From Haladaptatus paucihalophilus DX253 (GTDB taxonomy: Archaea; Halobacteriota; Halobacteria; Halobacteriales; Haladaptataceae), in assembly GCF_000376445.1 (NCBI RefSeq), contig NZ_AQXI01000001.1:404962-468961 (forward strand): 64,000 nucleotides of DNA. Direction: 5' to 3'. The notes under the pieces were generated by a model that was not told the origin of the DNA, ran no database searches, and saw nothing but the letters and a program-made list of their open reading frames with translations. Shown here piece by piece: positions 41,239-55,454 of the stretch (positions are counted from its first letter, which is position 1; the number at the start of each line of letters is the position of its first letter). The position numbers and the translations under genes were made by a program.

Positions 41239-41763
41239 TCACTCGTAGCGACTGTCCTCCCGGATGTGCTCCGGCATCGCGTCGTCCCGGCCGTTGTACT
41301 GGTCGCCGAAGGTCTCCACGATGTCCCGTTCGGACTCCCAATCGACGTAGTACTCGGTGAGCACGCCCGCCACCGTCTCGCCGAGGGCGTCCATCTCCTC
41401 GTTGATGGCCGAGACGGTAGACCACGAGTCGATGTCCGCGTAGCGACTCCGGTCCTCCCAATCGTCCGGGATTTCGGGCGCTTCGTACGCCACCTCTTCC
41501 AGTTCCGGGTCCCAGTAGAAGTCGAATGCCGCGATACACCCGAGGTCGAGCGCGATGTGATACGCGTCCACCGAGAGCGCCGTCTCCGCCGCCCACGCGG
41601 AGAATCCCTCGTGCCACGCGTTCTCCTCGCCGTCCAGATACGTCTGGAGGTCGGCTCGTTTGTGGACGTCGGACTCGTACTGGTCGTCCCGCGTTAGCTC
41701 GTAGATGGTCGGCGCGGCGGGTGTCGTGACGTCGAGGCTCATGTCGGTAGAGACGTCTCCCAC
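41239..41763 (-). CDS. Conserved haloarchaeal hypothetical protein
   Basis: This is a 174-residue, very acidic, soluble protein rich in Asp, Glu, Trp and Tyr, with no signal or membrane segment. It appears mainly helical, with motifs such as ENAWHEGFSAWAAETAL and ADIDSWSTVSAINEEMDALG. I do not recognise the family. ATG 41763; ATG 41742 (MSLDVTTPA) is also plausible. It follows the P450 gene by 24 bp on the same strand, so it may be co-expressed with it. Confidence 0.6.
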   Translation of the reverse strand: MGDVSTDMSLDVTTPAAPTIYELTRDDQYESDVHKRADLQTYLDGEENAWHEGFSAWAAETALSVDAYHIALDLGCIAAFDFYWDPELEEVAYEAPEIPDDWEDRSRYADIDSWSTVSAINEEMDALGETVAGVLTEYYVDWESERDIVETFGDQYNGRDDAMPEHIREDSRYE

Positions 41764-41787
41764 GTCGATAAGCTCTGTCGCCCCGTC

Positions 41788-43023
41788 TCACTCGCGGTCG
41801 AAGCGAATCGGGAGCGACTCGACGCCGTAGATGAACGAACTCCGCGTCGGTTCGAGCGTCGTCTCGGGAATCGTGACGTTCGACACGCGGGACAGCAGTT
41901 CCGAGAGCGCGACCTTCGCTTCGAGCCGGGCGAGCGGCGCACCCAGACAGTAGTGGGTGCCGTAGCCGAACCCGAAGTGTTGGTTCGGGGTGCGGTCGGG
42001 CCGAAACTCGTCCGCGTCGTCGAACTGCCGCTCGTCGCGGTTCCCGGAACCGAGCCAGACGACGATTTGGTCGCCTTCCTCGATGGTTTCGCCGTGCATC
42101 GTCACGTCCTCCATCGCCACGCGGGTCATCGCCTGCACGGGTGACCGGTAGCGAAGTACCTCCTCGATGGCCGTGGTGAGCGCGCGGTCGTCGCCCGCCA
42201 GTTCGTCCACGGCGTCCACCTCGTCGAAAGACCGCATCGCGTTCGTGATGAGGTTCGTCGTCGTGATGTTCCCGGCGACGAGCAACAGAATACACGTTCC
42301 GAGGATTTCCCGATGCGTGAGCGGTTCGCCGTCGATTTCGGCGGTGACGAGCGTCGAGATGAGGTCGTCTTGCGGATTCTCGCGCCGGTCTTCCATGAGT
42401 TGGATGAAGTAGAACGCCATCTCTTGGCGCATCTCCTCTTGGCGTTCGACGAACTCCGCGCCGCTCTCGTCCTCGCTCGCGGCCGAGACGATGGCGTCCG
42501 ACCACGTTTTGAACTGCTCGCGGTCCTCCGTCGGAACGCCGAGCAGTTCCGCGATGACGATGACGGGAAGCGGGTACGCGAACTCCGACACGAGGTCGAT
42601 TTCGTCCCCGTTATCGAGGATGTCGTCCAGCAACTCAGTCGTCAACTCGCGGATACGCGGCTCCAGTTCCCGAATCGTTCGGGGACTGAACTCCTCGTCC
42701 ACGACGCCGCGGAGTTCGTCGTGTCGCGGCGGGTCCTGTAGGAGCATCGTATCGAGCATGACGCCCGCCTCCTCGCCCTCAGGTTCCTGAAATCCGCTCG
42801 CGTTCCGCGGGCTTACGGAGAATCGCTCGTCGTCGTCGAGCATCTCCTTTACGTCGTCGTATCGGAACACGTCCCACACCTTCCGCGTCGGGTCGTACCG
42901 AACCGGTGCCCGCTCGCGCATCTCCCGATACCAGTCGAACGGTTCGAGCCACGCTTCTCGCTCGGATAGTTCGTCGGGGAACGCCTGCAAACCCTGTGGG
43001 TCGGAGGAACTCATCCCTGACAC
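41788..43023 (-). CDS. Cytochrome P450
   Basis: This 411-residue soluble class I type P450 has the I-helix oxygen-binding motif LLVAGNITTTN (about 243-253), ExxR in EEVLRYRSP (about 288-292), the PERF-like segment FRPDRTPN and the heme-thiolate loop FGFGYGTHYCLG with C359. It inserts one oxygen into an organic substrate and would need a ferredoxin and reductase, neither of which is adjacent. The substrate is unknown. The start MSGMSS at 43023 is ATG; ATG 43014 is possible. Confidence 0.92.
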   Translation of the reverse strand: MSGMSSSDPQGLQAFPDELSEREAWLEPFDWYREMRERAPVRYDPTRKVWDVFRYDDVKEMLDDDERFSVSPRNASGFQEPEGEEAGVMLDTMLLQDPPRHDELRGVVDEEFSPRTIRELEPRIRELTTELLDDILDNGDEIDLVSEFAYPLPVIVIAELLGVPTEDREQFKTWSDAIVSAASEDESGAEFVERQEEMRQEMAFYFIQLMEDRRENPQDDLISTLVTAEIDGEPLTHREILGTCILLLVAGNITTTNLITNAMRSFDEVDAVDELAGDDRALTTAIEEVLRYRSPVQAMTRVAMEDVTMHGETIEEGDQIVVWLGSGNRDERQFDDADEFRPDRTPNQHFGFGYGTHYCLGAPLARLEAKVALSELLSRVSNVTIPETTLEPTRSSFIYGVESLPIRFDRE

Positions 43024-43278
43024 TACAGGGGCGCGGCGTATCAGGATTTCCCTTCTCGTATCGGTCCTCGGGTTCCTTGAAATAACGGCCGGATAAACTT
43101 CGAGTGAAGTAGGGTCCTCCTCGACGCTATTTCCAGAATTCTTTTATGACTATTCTGTCCCGATGACGATTAATTAGCGAACAATAGGATAATATTGCGA
43201 ACGATGACGGACGGTATTCACGGTGAAAGCCCGTTACTTTGCCCGACTTTCAATTCGCACGGAACTGAGACGGAAGGC

Positions 43279-43287
43279 TAATATAAT
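43279..43287 (+). promoter_or_regulatory. TATA box of the amino acid ABC operon
   Basis: TAATATAAT is centred about 26 bp before ATG 43309, so the operon mRNA is probably leaderless. The 285-bp gap to the P450 gene also holds two GCGAAC direct repeats (43178 and 43198) around an AT-rich core, with no known meaning. Confidence 0.6.
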
Positions 43288-43308
43288 TGTGGTAAATGCT
43301 TTCATAGC

Positions 43309-44196
43309 ATGGATAGACGAACCTACCTCAAGGCCAGTTCCGGAGCAGTTGCTGCGCTGGCGTTCGCGGGTTGTTTGGGCGACTCTGGTGGCAGCGGTAG
43401 CGACGACAACGGTGACAACGGCGACAACGGTGACGACGAGAAGACCAGTTCGGACGGCAAGGACGATTCCGACACCGGCAAGATACTCATCGGCTCCGAT
43501 ATACCGTACAAGCCGTTCGAGTACCGCACGGCGGACGGGTCGCTCGAAGGGTTCGACCCCGGTATCGCGGAAGCCATCTTCAAGGGACAGCTCGACCGGG
43601 AGTACGAGTTCAAGAAGGCCGGTTTCGACACCATCATCGACAGTCTGAAAAACAAGAACTTCCGCCTCATCATGAGCGCGATGACCATCACCGACAAGCG
43701 CGCGGAGAAGGTCGATTTCTCCGACCCGTACTTCACGGCGTACCAGACCGTTGCGATTCGCAAGGGTGGTGGCATCGAGAAGCTCGACGACTTGAAAGGC
43801 AAGACCGTCGCCGTCCAGAAGGGGACGACCGGCGAAAGTGCGGCGGAAAAAGTGAAGGAGGACTTCGGTGGCAGCCTCACGATTCACAGCTACGACCAGA
43901 TTGCGGGCGCGTTCAACGCGCTGCGGAACCAGCAGGCGGTCGCGGTCATCAACGACAACACCGTCAACGCGGAGTTCGTGAACAAGATGGACGGCGTCGT
44001 ATTCCTCGAAGGCGAAGGAGAAGCCGCGAAGCAGGGGAAGAACGCACCCGACTATCTCACGCTGACAATCGAGGAGTACGGCATCGCGTTCCGCAAGGAC
44101 GACGATGACCTCCGGAAACAGGTGAACGAGGCCATCAAAGCCATCAAGGACGACGGCACGTACGACAAGATATACGACAAGTATTTTGAGGGCTGA
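43309..44196 (+). CDS. Polar amino acid ABC transporter binding lipoprotein
   Basis: This is a 295-residue protein with a Tat-type signal and lipobox (RRTYLKASSG, AFAGC, C22), a Gly/Asp/Asn linker to about 55, then a family 3 solute-binding domain: IPYKPFEYRTADGSLEGFDP, DSLKNKNFRLIMSAMTITDKRA, VDFSDPYFTAYQTVAI. It captures a polar amino acid such as glutamine, arginine or histidine outside the membrane and passes it to the permease at 44242. It is first of a three-gene operon. Confidence 0.92.
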   Translation: MDRRTYLKASSGAVAALAFAGCLGDSGGSGSDDNGDNGDNGDDEKTSSDGKDDSDTGKILIGSDIPYKPFEYRTADGSLEGFDPGIAEAIFKGQLDREYEFKKAGFDTIIDSLKNKNFRLIMSAMTITDKRAEKVDFSDPYFTAYQTVAIRKGGGIEKLDDLKGKTVAVQKGTTGESAAEKVKEDFGGSLTIHSYDQIAGAFNALRNQQAVAVINDNTVNAEFVNKMDGVVFLEGEGEAAKQGKNAPDYLTLTIEEYGIAFRKDDDDLRKQVNEAIKAIKDDGTYDKIYDKYFEG

Positions 44197-44241
44197 TTCC
44201 ACGGACGTCGCCTTCACCAAACAACTATAATTTGATACATT

Positions 44242-45060
44242 ATGGCAGAGACATACCACGAAGACGCTGCCGCCGAACACCGAGCAGGCGACGGCCTACT
44301 GACCGACACCCGGCTCAAATGGTTCGGAATCGCCGTCGCTGGAGGATTCTCGCTTCTCATCGCGTACGTTATCTTCCGTATTCTCACGGATTTCGTCGAT
44401 TACGATCTGTTGGTGACCATTTTCCCGCGATTCATCAGCACGTACATCGACGTTCTCGTAATCGTCGTCGTTTCGAGCGTCCTCTCGCTCATCGGCGGTG
44501 TCTTCATCGGCTTGGGTCGCGTGTCGAAAACGAAATTCACTCGCGCCGTCGCCACGTGTTACGTCGAGTTCTTCCGCGGAACGCCGCTCCTCTTCCAGTT
44601 GTTCGTCCTGTACATCGGACTCCCGAGGTTCGGCATCGGAAACTTCTCCCGGTGGGGTTGGTACGCCGGTATCATCGGCCTTTCGCTGAATCACGCGGCG
44701 TACTCCGGCGAGGCGATCAAAGGCGGTATCAACTCCATTCCGGACGGTCAGATGGAGGCCGCGCGGTCGCTCGGCATGTCCTACATCAGTGCGATGCGGA
44801 AAATCATTCTCCCGCAGGCGTTCCGAAACTCCCTCGCCGCGGTCGGGAACGACCAGATCATCCTGGTCAAGGACACGTCGTTGCTGTCGGTTATCGCCGT
44901 CAGCGAACTCATCAGCCTCTTCCGGAACGTCAACAGCAACCAATTCGACGCGTGGACGCCGCTCGTCCTCGTGGCGATAGCGTACCTCGCCATCACGCTC
45001 CCACTTGGCAAACTCGTGCGTATGCTGGAAGAGCGCGCTGCATGGGGTGAACAGCGATGA
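44242..45060 (+). CDS. Amino acid ABC transporter permease (HisM/GlnP type)
   Basis: This 272-residue membrane protein has about five helices: 35-60, 72-100, 125-145, and 180-265. The EAA motif for the ATPase is [20 protein letters not shown] (about 172-191), and the family block [20 protein letters not shown] is at about 110-129. A single permease type implies a homodimer. It overlaps the ATPase gene by 4 bp (ATGA). Confidence 0.92.
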
Positions 45061-45791
45061 ATACTCCAAAAATCGAGTTCGACGGCGTTGATAAGTACTT
45101 CGGCGAAGCACACGTCCTGAAGGACGTCGACCTCGAAATCGAGGACGGCGAAGTGGTCGTCGTCGTCGGCCCGAGCGGCAGCGGGAAATCGACGCTGTTG
45201 CGGTGTACGAACCGCTTGGAGGAGATACAGGGCGGCGACATCCGCATCGAAGGACAGTCCATCACCAACCCGACGGTGGACATCAACTTCCTCCGCCAGC
45301 GCATCGGAATGGTGTTCCAGAGCTTCAACCTCTTCCCGCACAAGACCGCGCTGGAGAACGTCTCTATCGCGCCGATAGACGTGAAGGGACTGTCGCGTGC
45401 GGAGGCGGACGAACGGAGCCAGCAACTCCTCACCGACGTGGGCCTTGAGGACCAAGCCGACTCCTACCCGAACCAGCTTTCGGGCGGGCAACAACAGCGC
45501 GTCGCCATCGCTCGCGCGCTGGCGATGGACCCGCACGTCATGCTGTTCGACGAGGTGACGAGCGCGCTCGACCCCGAACTCGTCGGCGAAGTGCTGGGCG
45601 TCATGCGCGAACTCGCCGAGGGCGGCATGACGATGATGGTCGTCACCCACGAGATGGGCTTCGCCCGCGAAGTCGGCGACCGAATCGTCCTCATGGCCGA
45701 CGGGCACGTCATCGAAACCGCGCCGCCCGAGGAATTCTTCGAGAACCCGCGGACGGACCGTGCGAAGCAGTTCCTCTCGATGGTGCTGTAG
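45057..45791 (+). CDS. glnQ: Amino acid ABC transporter ATPase (GlnQ type)
   Basis: This 244-residue ATPase has Walker [10 protein letters not shown] (38-46), signature LSGGQQQR (about 139-146), Walker [12 protein letters not shown] (about 162-172) and switch His VTHEMG (about 198). It energises the permease encoded just upstream. The last 39 bp of coding sequence (45752-45790, [12 protein letters not shown] plus part of the stop) recur almost exactly in the chimeric gene at 50728-50766. Confidence 0.95.
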
Positions 45792-45820
45792 CGGTTTTTG
45801 AACGCTCCTGTCCCACCTTT

Positions 45821-45866
45821 CTCGACGGTCCCGTCGAATTCCGCTCGATTGTCCCGTCGAATCCCT
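45821..45866. repeat. 23-bp tandem repeat, 2 copies plus fragment
   Basis: Units begin CTCGACGGTCCCGTCGAATT (45821) and CTCGATTGTCCCGTCGAATC (45844), with a third start CTCGACCG at 45867. It lies just after the ABC ATPase stop, in the gap before the HTH gene. Confidence 0.8.
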
Positions 45867-46018
45867 CTCGACCGCCCTCTATCTCTCCCGTTTTCGTGAG
45901 ACGGAACCCAATTCCAAGCTTCTGGGACGAGTCGATGTCTCTTTTACACCTGCCCGGAAATGACGGGTAGATACGGGACCGATTCCGCACGTCGCATCGA
46001 GCGGTCCCGGCGACCCGA

Positions 46019-46474
46019 ATGAACGAACACAACGTCGATTGGAGCCGGTTGTTACTGGTTCCCGAGCGGACGGAGACGACCGAGCCGTCTACAGACATGA
46101 ACCGAGAACCGTCGGACGACCGGACGTCCCCGCCGCCGTCGGTGGTCCTGCGGTCGCTCGAAGACGACAAGTGTCGAACGCTCCTCACGGCGTTACGCGA
46201 ACCCACGTCCGCGACCGCGCTCCGCACCGAGTGCGACATGCCCCGTTCGACCGTGTATCGGAAACTCGAACGACTCGGCGAGGCCGGACTCGTGCGGGAG
46301 TACACCGAGGTTCGACGCGACGGACCGAACGCCACCCTCTACGAGCGCGATTTTACTGATATCTCCATCAGCATCGACGAGAACGACGAGTTCACGGTTT
46401 CAGTCGAGCGCCCGGACCGGGACGCCACGGACCGGATGGCGACTTTCTGGACGGAGATGAAAAAAGAATCATGA
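46019..46474 (+). CDS. Winged-helix (ArsR-like) regulator
   Basis: This is a 151-residue protein with a disordered N-terminus to about 40 and a winged helix at about 42-105: VLRSLEDDKCRTLLTALREP, then ATALRTECDMPRSTVYRKLERLGEAGLVRE. The C-terminal beta part (ISIDENDEFTVSVERP) is typical of haloarchaeal regulators paired with DUF7521. ATG 46019 is used; ATG 46097 would drop only the disordered part. It overlaps the DUF7521 gene by 4 bp. Confidence 0.82.
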   Translation: MNEHNVDWSRLLLVPERTETTEPSTDMNREPSDDRTSPPPSVVLRSLEDDKCRTLLTALREPTSATALRTECDMPRSTVYRKLERLGEAGLVREYTEVRRDGPNATLYERDFTDISISIDENDEFTVSVERPDRDATDRMATFWTEMKKES

Positions 46475-46749
46475 TGGACGCGATAACGTGGCTCCTCGTC
46501 ATCGTGAAGTTCACCGCGCTCGGACTCGGCGGGGTCGTCACTCTACTCGCCTACCGAGCCTACGAGCGCACGCAGTTCGCGGGACTTCGCTACTTCGCCA
46601 TCGGGTTGTTCATCATCACCGTCGGGACGGTGCTGGTCGGCGTCTTCCACCACTTCCTCCACGTCGAACTCACGATGGGGATGCTCCTCGAAAGCTCCAT
46701 CATCTGCGTCGGGTTCGGCGTCATGGTCGTCGGACTGTACGGGCAATAG
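46471..46749 (+). CDS. DUF7521 three-helix membrane protein
   Basis: This 92-residue protein has three hydrophobic segments (about 5-27, 41-62, 68-90) with HHFLHVE between the second and third. It is of the DUF7521 haloarchaeal family. The start overlaps the HTH stop (ATGA), so the two proteins are made together; a membrane partner that controls the regulator is a reasonable but untested idea. Confidence 0.8.
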   Translation: MMDAITWLLVIVKFTALGLGGVVTLLAYRAYERTQFAGLRYFAIGLFIITVGTVLVGVFHHFLHVELTMGMLLESSIICVGFGVMVVGLYGQ

Positions 46750-46798
46750 CGGCGTTTTCGTCCGTTCACACACCGGTTTCCCTCCACGTTTCGAGGTT

Positions 46799-46815
46799 GT
46801 CCCACGTTGTGGGAC
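46799..46815. promoter_or_regulatory. Perfect 7-bp inverted repeat
   Basis: GTCCCACGTTGTGGGAC: 7-bp arms with a 3-bp centre. It lies between the DUF7521 stop and the RND gene, 120 bp before the latter. It could be an operator or part of a terminator. Confidence 0.4.
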
Positions 46816-46934
46816 CCCACCATCGGTTCTTGTTCGATGCCTGTGGAGACTATCGTAATGAGAGTCACGACTGAAGGTACCCTCACGTTCGACGTGCCGC
46901 ACCGACGACCCGCTTCGGGACCGCGTGGTGACCG

Positions 46935-49574
46935 ATGAAGCGGACGGTAGCGGAACGGTTCGCGGACACCATCGTCGAGCGGAGCCGGCTCGTCATCGCG
47001 CTCTTGCTCCTCGTCTCGGTGGTCGTGGGTGCGGGCGCGGTCATCGGCGAAACGGGCGACGCGCCCATCGGCCAAGCCGGAACCACGTCGCAGGAACAGA
47101 AAGCCCTCGACGAAATCGGGGCGACGTACGGGACGAACGACGCGATAGTAAGCCAAGTCGTCGTGAGAACCGAGGACGGAAACGTCCTCTCCCGCGAGTC
47201 CTTGCTTCGAAGTCTCCGTCTCCAACGCGAGATACGAAACGACGACTCCATCAACGGGACGCTCCGCGCCGACCGCGGACTCGTCGGCATCGAGAACGTC
47301 GTCGCAACCGCCGCGTACGCCGAGGACGTGCGACGGCAACGGGCCAACTCGTCGAAGAACGGGTCCGGGACGAACGCCGGTGCTCCGGCGACCCGTCCAC
47401 CGTCGCCGACGTTGGACCAGCAGATACGCGCGCTCGAAACGCGCTCTCCCGCCGACGTCCGGTCCCTCGTCGGAACGGTGCTCGATTCCGACGCGGCCGC
47501 TCCGGGAACCGACCCGACGGAGTTCCTCTCCTCGAACTACGAACCGGGGACGACGAGCGCGGACGCACGGATTACGTTCGTCTTCCAGCGAGGAACGGAC
47601 GACTCGGAAGCCGCGACTCAAGCTGCGTACGACGCGCAGGTGGCCATCGAGTCGCTGGTCGATTCGCGCTTCGACGACGCGTTCGTCTTCGGGCAGGGAA
47701 TCGTCGATGACGCCTCGTCGCGGGCCATCGGCGACAGTTTCATCATCATCACGCCGGTCGCCCTCGTCCTGTTGCTCATCGCGCTCACCCTCGCCTACCG
47801 CGACCTCGTGGACGTGCTCATCAGCGTCTTCGGCGTCGGCGTCGTGATGGTGTGGCTCAGCGGCGCGCAGGCGTGGCTCGGGATTCCGTCGAGTTCGCTC
47901 CTCATCGCGGTTCCGTTCCTCCTCATCGGGTTGAGTCTCGACTACTCGCTGCACGTCGTTATGCGGTACCGCGAGGCGCGGACCGGTGCCCTCGATACCG
48001 ACGATTCGGATACCGACCGGCGGTCTCCGGCGATGGCGATGCGGTCGGGACTCTCCGGGGTCATCCTCGCGCTGGCCATCGCGGCGTTTACGACTGCCAT
48101 CGGATTCTTCTCGAACTACGTCAGTCCGCTGGCGTCCATCCGCGACTTCGCGCTCCTGAGCGGCACCGGCATCATCGCCATGCTGGTCGTTTTCGCCGCG
48201 CTCGTCCCGGCGGTCAAACTCGAAGTCGAACGCTTCTTCGACCGCCGCGGCCGTCCCCGCTTGCGTTCGGCGTTCGGCGGCGGTAACGGGCCGATTCGGC
48301 GCGCGCTTTCGGGTACCGCAAACCTCGCCCAACGGGCACCCGTCGTCGTCCTCGTCGTCGCCGTCCTCCTCGCGTCGTCCGGCGTCTACGGCGCGACGGG
48401 CATCGATACGGAGTTCAACCAAGCCGATTTCATCCCGCAGGACGCCCCCGCGTGGATGCACTCGCTCCCCGAACCGTTCGCGCCCGACCAGTACGATGTC
48501 AGCGCGAACCTCGCGTACCTGAGCGATAACTTCCGGCAGCGCGGTGAAGGGTCGGAGGCGCAGATACTCGTCCGTGGGACCGTCACCGACGCGAAATCGC
48601 TCGCGGCGCTCGATGCGGCGACGACGACTGCAACGGAACGCGGTGGGCGGAACGGCACCATCGTCTTGCGGCCGGATGGGTCAGCCGCCGTCGAAAGCCC
48701 CGCGACGGTCCTGCGCGACGTGGCCGCCACGAACGACACGGTGGCCGCGGCAATCGACGACCGCGACCGTGACGGCGACGGACTCCCGGACGAAGACGTC
48801 GCGGCGGTCTACGACCGGTTGTACGACGCCGCTCCCGAACGCGCGGCGACGGTCCTCTACCGTGACGCGAACGGGTCGTACGAATCCGCACGCGTTATCG
48901 TCGGAATCGCGGGCGACGCCTCGGCGCAGTCGAGCGCAAGCGACGTCCGCGCGGTTGCCACCGCGGTCGAACGAGGTGCCCCCGTCACGGCGATTGCGAC
49001 CGGTCAGCCGGTCGTTACCGCCGTCGTCCAGAGCGCGCTGTTCGAGACGCTCGTCGAGGGATTCTCCATCACGCTCGGCGTCATCCTCGTGTTCCTCGTC
49101 GGGTTGTACTGGTGGCGATACCGTGCACCCGAACTCGGCGCGGTGCTCCTCGTTCCCGTCCTCATCGCGCTCGCGTGGCTGCTCGGAACGATGGCGTTGC
49201 TCGACATTCCGTTCAACAGCGAAACCGTCATCATCACCAGTCTAGCCATCGGTCTCGGCGTGGACTACAGCATCCACCTCGGCGAACGTGTTGTGGACGA
49301 ACGCGCTCGTCACGACACGCTCGGGGAGGCGCTCTCGGCCGCCATCGTCGGGACCGGTGGCGCGCTCCTCGGAAGCGCGGTGACGACGGCCGCCGGGTTC
49401 GGCGTGCTCGCGTTGGCGCTCTCGCCTCCGCTCCGGCGGTTCGGGACGGTGACGGGATTGAGCATCGTGTACGCCCTCGTCGCGTGCGTCACGGTGCTTC
49501 CGTGCCTCCTCGTAATCCGCGAGCGACTCCTGGGCCGACGGACGAACGTCGAATCCGGGGAAGCGGCGAACTGA
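46935..49574 (+). CDS. RND superfamily (MMPL-type) exporter, second copy
   Basis: This 879-residue transporter has the RND two-repeat layout: TM1 at about 15-35, an external loop to about 265, TM2-6 at about 270-430, TM7 near 475, a second loop to about 690, and last helices at about 700-860. The GLSLDYSLHVVMRYRE and GLGVDYSIHLGERV blocks are the RND helix-4 region equivalents. The second loop has a Ca-type loop DRDRDGDGLPDED (about 606-618), as in the exporter at 6221-9265. Unlike that paralogue it lacks the long coiled coil. The substrate is unknown. ATG 46935 overlaps the stop of a 26-codon frame starting at 46858. Confidence 0.85.
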   Translation: MKRTVAERFADTIVERSRLVIALLLLVSVVVGAGAVIGETGDAPIGQAGTTSQEQKALDEIGATYGTNDAIVSQVVVRTEDGNVLSRESLLRSLRLQREIRNDDSINGTLRADRGLVGIENVVATAAYAEDVRRQRANSSKNGSGTNAGAPATRPPSPTLDQQIRALETRSPADVRSLVGTVLDSDAAAPGTDPTEFLSSNYEPGTTSADARITFVFQRGTDDSEAATQAAYDAQVAIESLVDSRFDDAFVFGQGIVDDASSRAIGDSFIIITPVALVLLLIALTLAYRDLVDVLISVFGVGVVMVWLSGAQAWLGIPSSSLLIAVPFLLIGLSLDYSLHVVMRYREARTGALDTDDSDTDRRSPAMAMRSGLSGVILALAIAAFTTAIGFFSNYVSPLASIRDFALLSGTGIIAMLVVFAALVPAVKLEVERFFDRRGRPRLRSAFGGGNGPIRRALSGTANLAQRAPVVVLVVAVLLASSGVYGATGIDTEFNQADFIPQDAPAWMHSLPEPFAPDQYDVSANLAYLSDNFRQRGEGSEAQILVRGTVTDAKSLAALDAATTTATERGGRNGTIVLRPDGSAAVESPATVLRDVAATNDTVAAAIDDRDRDGDGLPDEDVAAVYDRLYDAAPERAATVLYRDANGSYESARVIVGIAGDASAQSSASDVRAVATAVERGAPVTAIATGQPVVTAVVQSALFETLVEGFSITLGVILVFLVGLYWWRYRAPELGAVLLVPVLIALAWLLGTMALLDIPFNSETVIITSLAIGLGVDYSIHLGERVVDERARHDTLGEALSAAIVGTGGALLGSAVTTAAGFGVLALALSPPLRRFGTVTGLSIVYALVACVTVLPCLLVIRERLLGRRTNVESGEAAN

Positions 49575-49705
49575 AAACGCCGCCGGTCTTTACGGTATTC
49601 AACGGTCGCAAGCGGTCCTTCGACTGTCCCCGTGTTCTCTATTTTCCGTGCCCGTCGTGGTTCGAAAATCGTGGCTCCGTGCCGTGCTGTCGAATCCGTC
49701 CGGGC

Positions 49706-50473
49706 CTATTCGACTACTTCGACGGCATCGCCGACGCGGAGCGTTTGATGGCGGTCCGACTCGGGTATCTGGGCGATGAGCATCGCCGCGTAGTGGTGGT
49801 CGAGCGCGCTCTCGTCCACCCAGTCCGGGAGCGTCTCCCGCCGTTTTCGGATGAATCGCGTGCGGAATTCTGGGAGGGCTTCGCCCGTGTCCGGGTCGCG
49901 CTGTGGGATGACGCACCGATTGCACGCCTCGACGCCCTCGAATCGGACACCGCCGACTTCGAAGGCGGGCGACCCGTCACCGATGAATCGGTCCTCCCAA
50001 AACGGGGGAACGCCTTCGATTTCGACGTTGGCGCGGAGTCGTCTCCGCGCGCTTTCGACCGTCATCCCGTCGAACCACGACGCGATGGCACGCAACGAGG
50101 CCGTGCTGATAACCGACGGCCCCCGCTTTCGCCGGTCGACGAACCCGTTCTCCGTGTCCCGACGCAGCGTCAGGTCCATCTCGAAGAGTTCGCTGAACCA
50201 TCGTTCGGCCCGTTCGCGTTGTTCGGGAAGGTCGAAGAGGCGTGTCTCTCCGTCCGGCGTTTCTATCGTCAGCTCACCCGAAGCGCGGTCGAAATCCGTT
50301 GACAGCCGTTGGAACATATCCGTTTGCTTCCCGTTGACGGCGTTGCCCGCGGCGTCGAAGAGCGCAAATTCCCTATCGGAGGCTACCGTGCCTCCCGGTA
50401 CGATGTCGGTCGCATCGACCTCGATGCCGTCGAGCCCTTTTATGGGATACACCCGTATCCGTCCGAGTTTCAT
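49706..50473 (-). CDS. MOSC domain protein (YcbX/mARC-like)
   Basis: This 255-residue protein has the MOSC N-terminal beta-barrel (IRVYPIKGLDGIEVDATDIV, about 5-24) and the C-terminal MOSC domain with the putative molybdenum-cofactor Cys in FEGVEACNRCVIPQRDPDTG (about 175-194). Related proteins (mARC, YcbX) are Moco enzymes reducing N-hydroxylated compounds. No ferredoxin domain is fused. ATG 50473. Confidence 0.85.
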   Translation of the reverse strand: MKLGRIRVYPIKGLDGIEVDATDIVPGGTVASDREFALFDAAGNAVNGKQTDMFQRLSTDFDRASGELTIETPDGETRLFDLPEQRERAERWFSELFEMDLTLRRDTENGFVDRRKRGPSVISTASLRAIASWFDGMTVESARRRLRANVEIEGVPPFWEDRFIGDGSPAFEVGGVRFEGVEACNRCVIPQRDPDTGEALPEFRTRFIRKRRETLPDWVDESALDHHYAAMLIAQIPESDRHQTLRVGDAVEVVE

Positions 50474-50593
50474 GGGTGGCTATGGTTCCGCGACGAGCAT
50501 ATAGCTGACTTTCAGGTCGGCTGCGCCGGTTTCCCGGCGGACGATACCCCTGCTCGAATCCCCGATTTCATATATCGATATACGATACATGTG

Positions 50594-50767
50594 ACCGATG
50601 CGAACATAATTCTCGCTTCTCGTCAATCTCTAATCATGCCCGACTATCGGCCGATACCGGCCACATACGAAGACGAGTATCAGCGGTTTTTGCGGTACGC
50701 GTTCGAGCCGGAAACCGGCCCCAAGCCGACGGACCGTGCGAAGCAGTTCCTCTCGGTGGTGCTGTAA
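50594..50767 (+). pseudogene. Chimeric fragment: acetyltransferase 5' end fused to ABC ATPase 3' end
   Basis: ATG 50636 opens a 43-codon frame. The first 29 codons (MPDYRPIPATYEDEYQRFLR onward) and about 42 bp upstream are about 80% identical to the start of the Eis-like acetyltransferase gene at 54195. From 50728 the last 39 bp match the end of the ABC ATPase gene (45752-45790) at 38 of 39 positions, in the same frame ([12 protein letters not shown]). The result is a fused, in-frame, short peptide under a copy of the acetyltransferase upstream region. It is most likely a remnant of recombination. Whether it is expressed is unknown. Confidence 0.75.
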
Positions 50768-51157
50768 TCGGCCGACTTTTCTATTCGTCCGTACCGGGAA
50801 GCGGCCGAAGCACGCCGTACCGGAGTCGATAAACGACCATCCCGGGTGTTTGACCGACGCCGAAGTTGTCCCTGAACGCTCCCGTTTGTGGCAGGAATCG
50901 TCGCCGGGCAGCGCCCGTGCACAGGATGAACAGCAGACGGCGACGGCGTTTCGTTCGCACACCGCCGACGTCACGGTCGGTCGTCGTTCAGCAGTGCCCG
51001 CCAATGGCGTATCTGAACGACCAACGTTATCGCGGCGACACCGAATTCGAACAGGGCGCGCGTTCGTCGCTTGACTATGATTCTCCGTGGGGGTCAGGTG
51101 GCTTTTCCACTGCTAAGCGACGGCTTCGGAAAATCGGGGAATTTCGGTGGGTTCGAA
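50768..51157. other. Intergenic gap, no gene recognised
   Basis: About 390 bp follow the chimeric fragment up to the end of the gluconate permease gene. Both strands have open frames, but none has haloarchaeal codon or amino acid character or resembles a known protein. No repeat, tRNA or insertion sequence end is seen. It may contain decayed sequence connected with the rearrangement at 50594-50767. Confidence 0.5.
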
Positions 51158-52594
51158 CTACGCCAGTGGGAAGATTGTCGAGATGACGAGCACCGTCACG
51201 AGGCCCGTGATGGAGATGATCGTCGTCAACACGGTCCACGTCTTCAGCGTCTCCGCTTGCGTAAGCCCGCCGATTTCCTTGACGAGCCAGAACCCGGAGT
51301 CGTTGTACCACGAGCAGATGTTTCCGCCCGCTCCGATGGCCATCACCATGTACACCGGGCTAACCGATAGCTGTGCGGTGAGCGGTGCCATGATTCCCGC
51401 GGCGGTGAGCATGGCGGCCGTTGCCGACCCCTGCGCGACGCGAACGATGGCGGCGATGAGCCACGCGGTCACGAGCAGGCCGATGCCGATGCCCTTGAGG
51501 TGGCTTGCGATGTACGACCCGATTCCGGACGCGGCCAAGAGCGCACCGAACGCGCCGCCCATCGCGGTGATGGCGGCGATGTTCCCACCGCTCTTCAGCG
51601 CCTCCGTGAGTTCCTCCTCCCAGAGCGACCGCGAGAGGTCGGACCAGCGGAGGTAGGTGTACGCCGCCGCGATGGCGGCGATAGTCAGCGCGACGTTCTT
51701 GTCCCCGACGAACGCGACCACCGGTTGCAGGTTCGCGAGCACCGGATATGGGTCCTTGAACGTATCGACGATGGTGTAGGAGGCGACCAACCCGATTGCG
51801 AGGATGATGGGGATGGCCGATTCGAGCACACTGGGGAGGTTCTTGTTGTCCCGGTTCGCACGCTCTTCGAGTTCTTCCGTCGTCGTTCCCATGGCATCCC
51901 GAAGCGGGATGTTCATCCGCTTGTTTATCCAGCGGCCGTAGACCAGACCTCCCATGATCGCCGACGGAATGGCGACGACGATACCGACCAGAATGGTCAG
52001 CCCGAGGTTAGCGATGTCGAGTTGATCCGAGACTGCTAACGGTCCCGGCGTCGGTGGGATAAAGACGTGAGCCACCGAGGCACCTGCCCCGACGGCTATC
52101 AGATACAGCGCGTAATTCTTCCCCACACGTGCGCGCATCGAACGTGCGAGCGGCGCGAGGAGGTAGAACACGCTGTCGAAGAACACAGGAATCGCGAGTA
52201 CGGTACTGCTGCCCCACAGCGCGATGTCCGAATTTTCCTTTCCAACGACCGATTGGAACGCCCGAACGATACGTTGGGCGGAACCGCTCTCGAGCATCGA
52301 CTTTCCGATAACCGATGCCATTAGAATTGGAATACCGATACCGGCCATCCCGTTCCCGAACTCCGTCGCCGTTCGTGCTGCCGCGTCGCCGAACGTGAAG
52401 TCGGCGACGAATACCGCGTTGAGTAATCCGACACCAAATGCGGAGATAGCTAGCCCGACGAACGCCGGGAGGTCCCAGACGACCAGGAGGAGGATGACTA
52501 AAATCAGTCCGGCTGCGAACGTCAACAGCGGACTCTGTGCGAATTCGATTGCCATGGATTGCGACTCCATGTCATTGATGTTCATTGAAAACAT
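51158..52594 (-). CDS. GntP-family gluconate:H+ symporter
   Basis: This 478-residue permease has about 12-14 helices. GntP/CitM-family landmarks are GFGNGMAGIGIPILMASVIG-type text near 78-96 (TEFGNGMAGIGIPILMASVI), FIPPTPGPLAVSDQL (about 177-191), VRVAQGSATAAMLTAAGIMA (about 387-406) and GAGGNICSWYNDSGFWLVKE (about 426-445). It takes up gluconate or a related hydroxy acid. Several Met codons occur near the start (52594, 52585, 52570, 52552); the true start is uncertain. It is divergent from a Usp gene. Confidence 0.88.
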   Translation of the reverse strand: MFSMNINDMESQSMAIEFAQSPLLTFAAGLILVILLLVVWDLPAFVGLAISAFGVGLLNAVFVADFTFGDAAARTATEFGNGMAGIGIPILMASVIGKSMLESGSAQRIVRAFQSVVGKENSDIALWGSSTVLAIPVFFDSVFYLLAPLARSMRARVGKNYALYLIAVGAGASVAHVFIPPTPGPLAVSDQLDIANLGLTILVGIVVAIPSAIMGGLVYGRWINKRMNIPLRDAMGTTTEELEERANRDNKNLPSVLESAIPIILAIGLVASYTIVDTFKDPYPVLANLQPVVAFVGDKNVALTIAAIAAAYTYLRWSDLSRSLWEEELTEALKSGGNIAAITAMGGAFGALLAASGIGSYIASHLKGIGIGLLVTAWLIAAIVRVAQGSATAAMLTAAGIMAPLTAQLSVSPVYMVMAIGAGGNICSWYNDSGFWLVKEIGGLTQAETLKTWTVLTTIISITGLVTVLVISTIFPLA

Positions 52595-52692
52595 TTTCCT
52601 TTAATAGCGATAATTTAATAAAGATGAATAATTAACAAACAGTATATTTGAAATAGATTGTATTATTTCTTCACTATGTAAACGAACGCTGG

Positions 52693-52700
52693 TTTTATTA
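52693..52700 (+). promoter_or_regulatory. TATA box of the Usp gene
   Basis: TTTTATTA is centred about 27 bp before ATG 52724, consistent with a leaderless transcript. Confidence 0.5.
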
Positions 52701-52723
52701 TTTCTCGTTTATTTGCGGTATTT

Positions 52724-53170
52724 ATGGACCGTGCACTCGCCGTCGTCGAACCTACGGAGGCGGCCAAGGAACTCGTTCGCGAAGCAGGTATCATCGCCGA
52801 GGGATTGGACGCCGACTTGATTCTAACGCATATCACTACCGAACAAGAGTACGGCGCTCGGCGGGACGCGATGGAATCGCTCATGAGCAGTTCGGCGAGC
52901 TACACCGTCGGCGAGGCCGAGGAGGGTGCGACGCAGTTCGCCCGTGACATCGGTGACGAGGTCCTCTCCGAACTCGATGTGGAGTACGACGTGACGGGCT
53001 ATCTGGGCAACAAGGCCGAGAAAATCCTCGCCGCCGCCGAGGAGTACGACTGCGACCACGTGTTCGTTACGGGGCGACAGCGCTCGCCGACGGGAAAGGC
53101 CCTCTTCGGCGACGCGACACAGGAAGTCATTCTCGACTTCGACGGACCGGTCACCGTTCTTACGGATTAA
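52724..53170 (+). CDS. Universal stress protein, single domain
   Basis: This 148-residue UspA-fold protein has an N-terminal strand MDRALAVVEPTEAAKELV and a C-terminal nucleotide-binding motif GRQRSPTGKALFGDATQEVI (about 119-138), close to the G-x2-G-x9-G(S/T) pattern for ATP. It is cytoplasmic. It sits between the gluconate permease and an SDR, suggesting a role tied to that uptake system, as haloarchaeal Usp genes often neighbour transporters. Confidence 0.88.
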   Translation: MDRALAVVEPTEAAKELVREAGIIAEGLDADLILTHITTEQEYGARRDAMESLMSSSASYTVGEAEEGATQFARDIGDEVLSELDVEYDVTGYLGNKAEKILAAAEEYDCDHVFVTGRQRSPTGKALFGDATQEVILDFDGPVTVLTD

Positions 53171-53243
53171 CTGATTCTTCACCATTTATTCAACAATAGT
53201 CCAGTTTCACACGGTTTAGTGTGCAAATAGTGACGAAACAACC

Positions 53244-53256
53244 GGAATAATAAAAC
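53244..53256 (+). promoter_or_regulatory. TATA box of the SDR gene
   Basis: GGAATAATAAAAC is centred about 28 bp before GTG 53279. This predicts a leaderless message starting at the GTG and supports that non-ATG start. Confidence 0.5.
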
Positions 53257-53278
53257 GGCAGCGCGATAGCCAACAACC

Positions 53279-54061
53279 GTGACCAGCACATTGCACGACC
53301 AGACCGCCGTCGTAACGGGGTCGAGTAGCGGTATCGGGTTCGCAATCGCACAGGAGTTCGCGTCCCGGGGCGCGAACGTCGTCGTCAACTCACGCTCGCA
53401 GGAGCGGGCGGCCGAAGCGGCCGAGGAAATCGCGGACGAGACGGGTTCAGAGTCCGTCGTTGCCATCGAAGCCGACGTGACGGACGCCGACTCGCTCGAA
53501 TCGCTCGTCGAGGACGTCGTCGAGCAGTTCGGCTCCCTCGACGTCTGGGTGAACAACGCGGGCATCAACATCCGCGGCCCGGCCGAGGAGATGTCGCTCT
53601 CCGACTGGCAGCAAGTCATCGACGTGAACCTGACCGGCGCCTTCTCCGGGGCGCAACTCGCCGGACGGCAGATGATAGAGCAGGGAACCGGCGGGAACAT
53701 CATCAATATCTCCAGCATGATGGGCGAACAGGGCCAGACCGGCCGGACGCCGTACAACACGTCGAAGGGCGGCGTCAACAACCTCACCCGCTGTCTGGCC
53801 GTCGAGTGGGCCGAACACGACATCCACGTCAATGCCATCTCCCCCGGCTACATCCGAACCGAGATGGTGGACGACGCACAGGACCAGATAGGATTCGACG
53901 AGCAGGACGTCATCGACCGCACGCCGCTCGGTCGGTTTGGAACCCCCGAGGAAGTCGCCAACTGCGCCGCGTTCCTCGCGGAGGGTGAACACTTCATGAC
54001 CGGCGAAATCCTCCACCCGGACGGCGGATGGCTCTCGTTCGGTTGGGGAAGCAAGTCATAG
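53279..54061 (+). CDS. Short-chain dehydrogenase/reductase (gluconate 5-dehydrogenase-like context)
   Basis: This 260-residue SDR has the cofactor motif TGSSSGIGFAI (about 14-24), NNAGI (about 93-97), catalytic Ser-Tyr-Lys as SSMMGEQGQTGRTPYNTSKGG (S near 143, Y near 156, K near 160), and C-terminal HPDGGWLSFGWG. The 40s region VVNSRSQERAAEAAEE suggests NADP(H). Near a GntP permease a gluconate or other sugar-acid dehydrogenase role is likely. It starts at GTG 53279; the TATA box spacing agrees. Confidence 0.88.
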   Translation: MTSTLHDQTAVVTGSSSGIGFAIAQEFASRGANVVVNSRSQERAAEAAEEIADETGSESVVAIEADVTDADSLESLVEDVVEQFGSLDVWVNNAGINIRGPAEEMSLSDWQQVIDVNLTGAFSGAQLAGRQMIEQGTGGNIINISSMMGEQGQTGRTPYNTSKGGVNNLTRCLAVEWAEHDIHVNAISPGYIRTEMVDDAQDQIGFDEQDVIDRTPLGRFGTPEEVANCAAFLAEGEHFMTGEILHPDGGWLSFGWGSKS

Positions 54062-54194
54062 AGTTCGTTCTGCCCTGTATTTCGCCTTTCATATCGATCC
54101 GACATACTTCCCCGATATCCCTTCTTTCGTACAGCGAAATGCGGTTCTAGTGCCCGACACGAACCTATTTCTCGCTTCCAGCCAATCCCGAATC

Positions 54195-55370
54195 ATGCCC
54201 GACTATCGGCCGATTCCCGCGAAGTACAAGGACGAGTATCGGCGATTTTTGTACTACGCGTTCCAACCCGAAGACGGCCCCGACATCGGCGAGGACGACG
54301 ATGACCCCGAACTCGGGGACCGTCGCGGACTCTTCGACGGCGACGACTTGCTCTGCGTGTGCAAACACCATTGGTTCACGACTCGTATCCGCGGCGAGTG
54401 GCACGAGATGGCCGGTCTGTCCGCCGTCGCGTCGCCGCCCGAGAGCCGCCGCCGTGGATTGGTGCGTGAGATGCTCGCCGAATCGCTCGCCGAGTACCGC
54501 GAGAACGAGGTGTACTTCTCGGCCCTCTGGCCCTTCTCCTACGAGTTCTATCGGAAGTACGGCTGGGCAACGGCGAACAAGCACACGAAATACGAGACGA
54601 CCCCGGACGCGCTCGATTTGGACATCGAACCCGCGGGCGAGCTTCGGCCGCTCGACGCCGACGACTGGGAACTGCTCGTTCCCGCGTTCGACGCGATGAC
54701 CGAGGGATACGCCCTCAGCACCGACCGAACCGAAGACTGGTGGCGAGAGCGGGTCTTCAAAGGGTGGAAGAAAGACCCCTACGTGTACGCGTGGATGCGG
54801 GACGGCGAAGCGCGCGGTTACGTCGTCTACACCGTCCACGACGAGGACGACGGCAAACGGTTCAAAGTGTGGGAGTTGACGGCCATGGACGACGAGGCAT
54901 ACCGCCACCTCCTGCGGTTCGTGCAGTACCACGACTCGCAAGTCGAAACCGTCGAGCTGACATACGTCCCCGAATCCACCGACCTCCTCGACATCGTGGC
55001 GAATCCCCGTGACGTGGACTGCGAAATCAACGCCGGTCCCATGTTCCGCCTCGTGGACGTCCCGCGCGCCCTCGAAAGCATCGCGTACGATGCGGACGCC
55101 AACGTCGTCCTCCGCGTCACCGACCCGCTGGCGGAGTGGAACGAAGGGACGTTCGAACTCGACACCGGCGACGTCGTTCGCTGTGAGCGCACCGACGCCG
55201 ACCCCGACGCGGTGACCGACGTGAACACGCTCTCGCAGTTGGTCGTGGGCTACCACGCCGTCGAAGACGCCGAACGGTTCGGAAACCTCTCCATCGAAAC
55301 CGACGACGCGCGTGCGAACCTCGCCGAACTGTTCCCCGAGCGGGACGTGTTCCTCACGGAAGGGTTCTGA
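54195..55370 (+). CDS. Eis-like GNAT N-acetyltransferase
   Basis: This 391-residue protein has a GNAT domain with the acetyl-CoA loop VASPPESRRRGLVREMLAES (about 82-101), a second GNAT-like domain (about 160-280) and an SCP2-type C-terminal domain (about 290-390; VLRVTDPLAEWNEGTFELDT). This tri-domain layout is that of mycobacterial Eis, which acetylates amines using acetyl-CoA. The archaeal substrate is unknown. ATG 54195 is chosen; GTG 54150 is less likely. The first 29 codons and upstream 42 bp have a diverged copy at 50594-50722. Confidence 0.87.
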   Translation: MPDYRPIPAKYKDEYRRFLYYAFQPEDGPDIGEDDDDPELGDRRGLFDGDDLLCVCKHHWFTTRIRGEWHEMAGLSAVASPPESRRRGLVREMLAESLAEYRENEVYFSALWPFSYEFYRKYGWATANKHTKYETTPDALDLDIEPAGELRPLDADDWELLVPAFDAMTEGYALSTDRTEDWWRERVFKGWKKDPYVYAWMRDGEARGYVVYTVHDEDDGKRFKVWELTAMDDEAYRHLLRFVQYHDSQVETVELTYVPESTDLLDIVANPRDVDCEINAGPMFRLVDVPRALESIAYDADANVVLRVTDPLAEWNEGTFELDTGDVVRCERTDADPDAVTDVNTLSQLVVGYHAVEDAERFGNLSIETDDARANLAELFPERDVFLTEGF

Positions 55371-55382
55371 GTCCCGACCGCC

Positions 55383-55454
55383 GACCGACCCGCATGTTCC
55401 GACCCACCCGCTCATTTTGACCGACCCGCACATTCCGACCGACCAATACTTTTG
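55383..55454. repeat. 18-bp tandem repeat, 4 copies
   Basis: Four adjacent 18-bp units: GACCGACCCGCATGTTCC (55383), GACCCACCCGCTCATTTT (55401), GACCGACCCGCACATTCC (55419) and GACCGACCAATACTTTTG (55437). The last unit merges into the promoter of the DUF7547 gene, whose ATG is at 55478. Confidence 0.88.

Follow-up and report, generated by a model that had tools for sequence, protein, structure and literature searches.

A 43-codon GNAT/ABC ATPase chimera in Haladaptatus paucihalophilus DX253 is probably a deletion scar

The locus

The window analysed here is a 64,000-nucleotide stretch of Haladaptatus paucihalophilus DX253 (contig NZ_AQXI01000001.1, positions 404,962 to 468,961). It carries an operon coding for a substrate-binding protein, a permease and an ABC ATPase, a block of four genes (HTH, DUF7521, MMPL transporter and MOSC), a short frame combining the start of an Eis-like GNAT acetyltransferase with the end of an ABC ATPase, and an intact GNAT gene (Table 1). 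In Haladaptatus G001 (L014) the corresponding operon is followed by a homologue of window 50751-50979 and then by GntP, USP and SDR genes. Since the end of the ABC gene adjoins the 50751-50979 homologue in G001, window 45792 to ~50727 is extra DNA, and the ABC tail of the chimera sits in the native downstream context of an ABC gene. That context includes a small membrane-protein gene, intact in G001 (128 aa; L014 9882-10268), of which only the C-terminal part is open here (50781-50960). The remnant at 50781-51073 (minus strand) has no Pfam match and is further truncated in Haladaptatus sp. DYF46 (G004).

Table 1. Features of the locus (window coordinates)
Feature	Position	Strand	Remarks
Operon: substrate-binding protein, permease, ABC ATPase	43253-45791		
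Intact ABC ATPase gene (PF00005), copy resembling the source of the tail	45057-45791	+	
Extra block absent from G001	45792-50557		G001 passes from the ABC end to the 50751-like flank
HTH gene, in extra block	46019-46474	+	Pfam
DUF7521 gene, in extra block	46471-46749	+	Pfam
MMPL transporter gene, in extra block	46935-49574	+	Pfam
MOSC-domain gene, in extra block	49706-50473	-	Pfam
Upstream (promoter) region of GNAT copy	50558-50635	+	72% identity to 54117-54194
5' remnant of second GNAT copy: ATG, 29 codons, AAGCC to junction	50636-50727	+	80% vs 54195 codons 1-29; homologous remnant in DYF46
Junction microhomology GACG, common to GNAT copy and ABC tail	50728-50731	+	Alignment of this genome, DYF46 and ABC tails
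3' remnant of second ABC ATPase copy: final 13 codons, with TAA replacing TAG as stop	50728-50767	+	40/42 vs 45749-45790; runs into G001-type flank
Native ABC downstream flank, decayed copy of small membrane-protein gene	50768-51073	-	74-77% match to G001
Intact Eis-like GNAT gene (Acetyltransf_9, Acetyltransf_17, SCP2_2)	54195-55370	+	

Gene content ahead of the GNAT gene differs among Haladaptatus genomes. In G008, 106 bp lie between GNAT and the preceding gene, the equivalent of window 41270-41755, and in G003, G005, G006 and G007 the two are separated by other stretches of ~2 to 6 kb; thus, window 41756-54124 is a variable region preceding a conserved GNAT-DUF7547-OB-thiolase block. (Within the latter, between the GNAT and DUF7547 genes, a direct repeat with 18-bp spacing, GACCGACCCGCA..., occurs three times at 55383-55444.) The HTH-DUF7521-MMPL trio (46019-49574) recurs on plasmids of Haladaptatus pallidirubidus, Halostella, Natrinema and Haloferax larsenii, and is also found in several genomes of the family (63-70% identity for MMPL). 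A plasmid source of the whole block was considered and set aside: only the trio and, separately, MOSC match haloarchaeal plasmids, at 64-71%.

The region is also uneven in its divergence. At fourfold-degenerate sites, HTH, DUF7521, MMPL and MOSC differ from their DYF46 counterparts by 0.07-0.09 and every other gene of the region by 0.16-0.31 (MMPL vs GntP, p = 3e-8), so that divergence across 46019-50473 is 2-4 times below that of all surrounding genes. As judged from these sequences, the four-gene block was probably exchanged between this lineage and that of DYF46 after their split. The ABC gene, for its part, differs from G001 by 0.23 at fourfold sites; its operon partners do so by 0.48 (p = 5e-5). 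This is a sign of local recombination or of codon constraint, the latter being possible because the P450 and thiolase genes likewise have low values. Both features, that of the block and that of the ABC gene, fit repeated exchange between lineages.

Structure of the chimeric frame

The frame runs from ATG 50636 to TAA 50767 (43 codons and a stop), and both of its parts, as described in the first-pass annotation, are confirmed. The GNAT part (50558-50722) aligns without gaps to 54117-54281 over 165 bp at 76% identity, with 70/87 nucleotides identical in codons 1-29. The copied upstream DNA had been put at about 42 bp; its presence stands, and its length does not, the match reaching 78 bp (56/78 identical). 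A block in this upstream region, CGAACATAATTCTCGC, corresponds to the CGAACCTATTTCTC block that is conserved genus-wide upstream of Haladaptatus GNAT genes. This second GNAT start runs divergently from the MOSC gene. The ABC part (50725-50766) matches 45749-45790 at 40/42 bp, or, as originally counted, at 38/39 from the GACG junction. The junction itself can be read directly by comparing the GNAT copy as it stands in DYF46, AAGCCGACGATG, the ABC tail, CGCGGACGGACC, and the chimera, AAGCCGACGGACC.

A 26-bp core pattern matches at just two places in the window, with none expected in shuffled sequence. Genome-wide, the GNAT gene at 54195 and the ABC gene at 45057 are the only partners of the two parts (E 1.7e-28 and 6.2e-12), which excludes chance matches. 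An alignment of ABC genes, proposed earlier as a way of finding the donor of the tail, singles out the neighbouring gene at 45057 as closest: the other ABC genes compared from the Haladaptataceae reach at most 36/42, and the other close ABC gene in this genome (G000:C1:1158300) only 27/42. As in a deletion-fused pseudogene, then, each part derives from a separate intact gene and keeps its own native outer flank, the GNAT upstream block on one side and the G001-type ABC flank on the other.

The two parts are unequally diverged from their counterparts, as had been noticed (76% vs 95%; Fisher p = 0.004). The first reading of this gap, that different donors contributed or that the joins were made at different times, holds insofar as two different gene copies are involved; they would have been joined in one deletion. 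Two joining events are not needed because the GNAT copy was already a diverged, ortholog-like one and the ABC copies were close. (The distance of the GNAT copy from the resident gene is about that of the GNAT genes of other Haladaptatus species.)

That ATG, frame, stop codon and a promoter-like upstream block have all been kept could suggest a newborn gene for a functional small protein, driven by the GNAT promoter, and Mycobacterium tuberculosis is known to produce fused proteins that arose by deletion (PMC7671302). Of the three joining phases, one yields the 43-codon frame and the other two would run to 64 and 145 codons; an in-frame join is thus expected by chance about one time in three. 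The size of the frame is commonplace, the window containing 232 frames that start with ATG and reach 43 codons or more. The 43-residue translation has no Pfam match and no complete GNAT domain. The join occurs in no other genome among 394 searched in the order, and the search of related genomes turned up no full-length gene with the same join. These points, together with the loss of frame in DYF46 described below, make the newborn gene highly improbable, and the first-pass suggestion of one is left without support: neither a conserved frame nor codon-level selection, by which a functional new small gene would be recognized, was found. Transcription of the chimera is possible because promoter-like sequence is present. 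A more elaborate proposal along this line would have the fusion transcribed from the captured GNAT promoter as a very young, species-specific gene, the 43-residue protein acting by binding via its GNAT N-terminus or by disturbing ABC ATPase assembly via its C-terminal tail; we regard this as most improbable. As read from the DNA, the frame is judged to be gene debris.

The homologous remnant in DYF46

DYF46 has the same extra block and a GNAT remnant (88% over 250 bp), so that presence of the block in two genomes and its absence from G001 are directly observed. Window 50732-50854 is missing from DYF46. Its GNAT remnant reads GGCCTCCAAGCCGACGATGATGACGACGCCGAAG, the ABC tail is entirely gone, and the remnant continues with GATGATGACGAC, at the position of the acidic tract in GNAT genes. 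GATGATGACGAC is absent from the flank of both this genome and G001. Since the DYF46 remnant reaches the acidic tract, the GNAT copy was once longer than it is here, although the extra stretch amounts to only ~15 nt and is of low complexity. The DYF46 equivalent of the chimera has ATA for ATG, one inserted base and no stop; with its other breakpoint, this means that no frame is conserved, and it bears out the earlier suggestion that the chimera could be a remnant. A different breakpoint in a sister species, a relative lacking the block and absence of a conserved frame are likewise what a deletion-fused pseudogene would present. The different right-hand ends imply that the two species lost the DNA separating GNAT copy and ABC tail in separate deletions.

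An assembly error is unlikely: the two tails differ in sequence and in stop codon, the flank matches G001, and the independent assembly of DYF46 contains both block and remnant.

Between this genome and DYF46, differences number 6/88 in the GNAT part and 27/163 in the preceding spacer (p = 0.03, on few sites). The lower divergence of the GNAT part would be expected if the second GNAT copy had stayed intact for some of the time since. In a tree of GNAT genes the two remnants group together (bootstrap 98), and no donor among Haladaptatus GNAT genes is singled out.

Origin of the join

The reading that we consider probable takes the chimera as the scar of a deletion, a fused pseudogene, left by an ancestral tandem that was pruned separately in two species. 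The most economical ancestor would carry two versions of the locus in tandem (its full extent is part of the reconstruction): first, the ABC gene, HTH-DUF7521-MMPL-MOSC and a second GNAT copy (GNAT-A); then a second ABC copy (ABC-B) with its native flank, GntP-USP-SDR and the resident GNAT gene. Such a tandem could have arisen when incoming DNA of a relative recombined with the resident locus, for which one recombination would suffice; recombination between haloarchaeal species is documented (PMC4500145). The redundant middle would later have been deleted. Here the loss would begin near codon 31 of GNAT-A, stop short of the final 13 codons of ABC-B and be closed at the 4-bp microhomology GACG; in DYF46 it would begin a little deeper in GNAT-A and end within the flank. 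Microhomology-mediated joining is the probable repair route: Haloferax volcanii, which is without Ku, uses microhomology-mediated end joining, and its products are deletions (PMC7776575).

The following observations count against this reading. The complete tandem, a parental version or MOSC beside a whole GNAT gene was not found in the genomes searched; specifically, MOSC beside GNAT is absent from the loci of the five MOSC genes closest to this one in the family, from the GNAT loci of seven others and, DYF46 itself apart, from 80 MOSC loci of the GTDB collection. In addition, the tail has two synonymous states (ACG and CGT) in common with this species' own ABC gene and not with that of DYF46. 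This requires either that the two ABC copies underwent gene conversion ahead of the deletion, as the sharing suggests, or that the second copy arose in this lineage alone. The arrangement is not that of a simple tandem duplication within the window, because the ABC tail precedes the native flank and not a second HTH-MMPL block.

The join might instead be the original right-hand junction of an insertion, a piece with a truncated GNAT start having entered at the ABC 3' end with duplication of ~42 bp of ABC sequence, and the tail having been lost later in DYF46. The 42-bp ABC tail is indeed a direct repeat flanking a 4.9-kb block, and G001 resembles the empty site. On the other hand, in DYF46 the GNAT remnant goes beyond this join into the acidic tract, so the earlier remnant was longer, and the block's open frames show neither integrase nor transposase. 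We know of no insertion mechanism that fits a 42-bp target duplication, and consider this origin rather unlikely. Site-specific integration at the ABC 3' end, with the 42-bp repeat as attL/attR, draws on the same direct repetition of the ABC end at both sides of the block that G001 lacks, and is extremely improbable: the open frames between the copies show no recombinase, a broken GNAT start precedes the right repeat, and DYF46 has no right repeat.

Relation to known systems and implications

Deletion fusions of M. tuberculosis (ppe38-71 and other multigene-deletion fusions; PMC7671302) likewise join the 5' part of one gene in frame to the 3' part of another. One of those has been detected as protein, whereas the frame described here has only 43 codons, joins a truncated GNAT domain to an ABC C-terminus, and gives no sign of function. 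Its promoter and first 29 codons are homologous to those of Eis-like GNAT acetyltransferases (Acetyltransf_9 + Acetyltransf_17 + SCP2_2), but more than 90% of the protein is missing, and of the catalytic domain only the first part remains. As in microhomology-mediated end joining in H. volcanii (PMC7776575), a short shared sequence, here 4 bp, lies at a haloarchaeal deletion junction; in contrast to that work, the event described here is read from sequence only, and the 4 bp could be chance.

The locus can be taken as an example of haloarchaeal locus remodelling, in which a duplicated mosaic locus would have undergone independent deletions in sister species and a fused frame was left by chance. 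Gene-calling programs may report a hypothetical protein at 50636-50767, and the case advises caution: short in-frame chimeras should not be called new genes before sister genomes have been checked.
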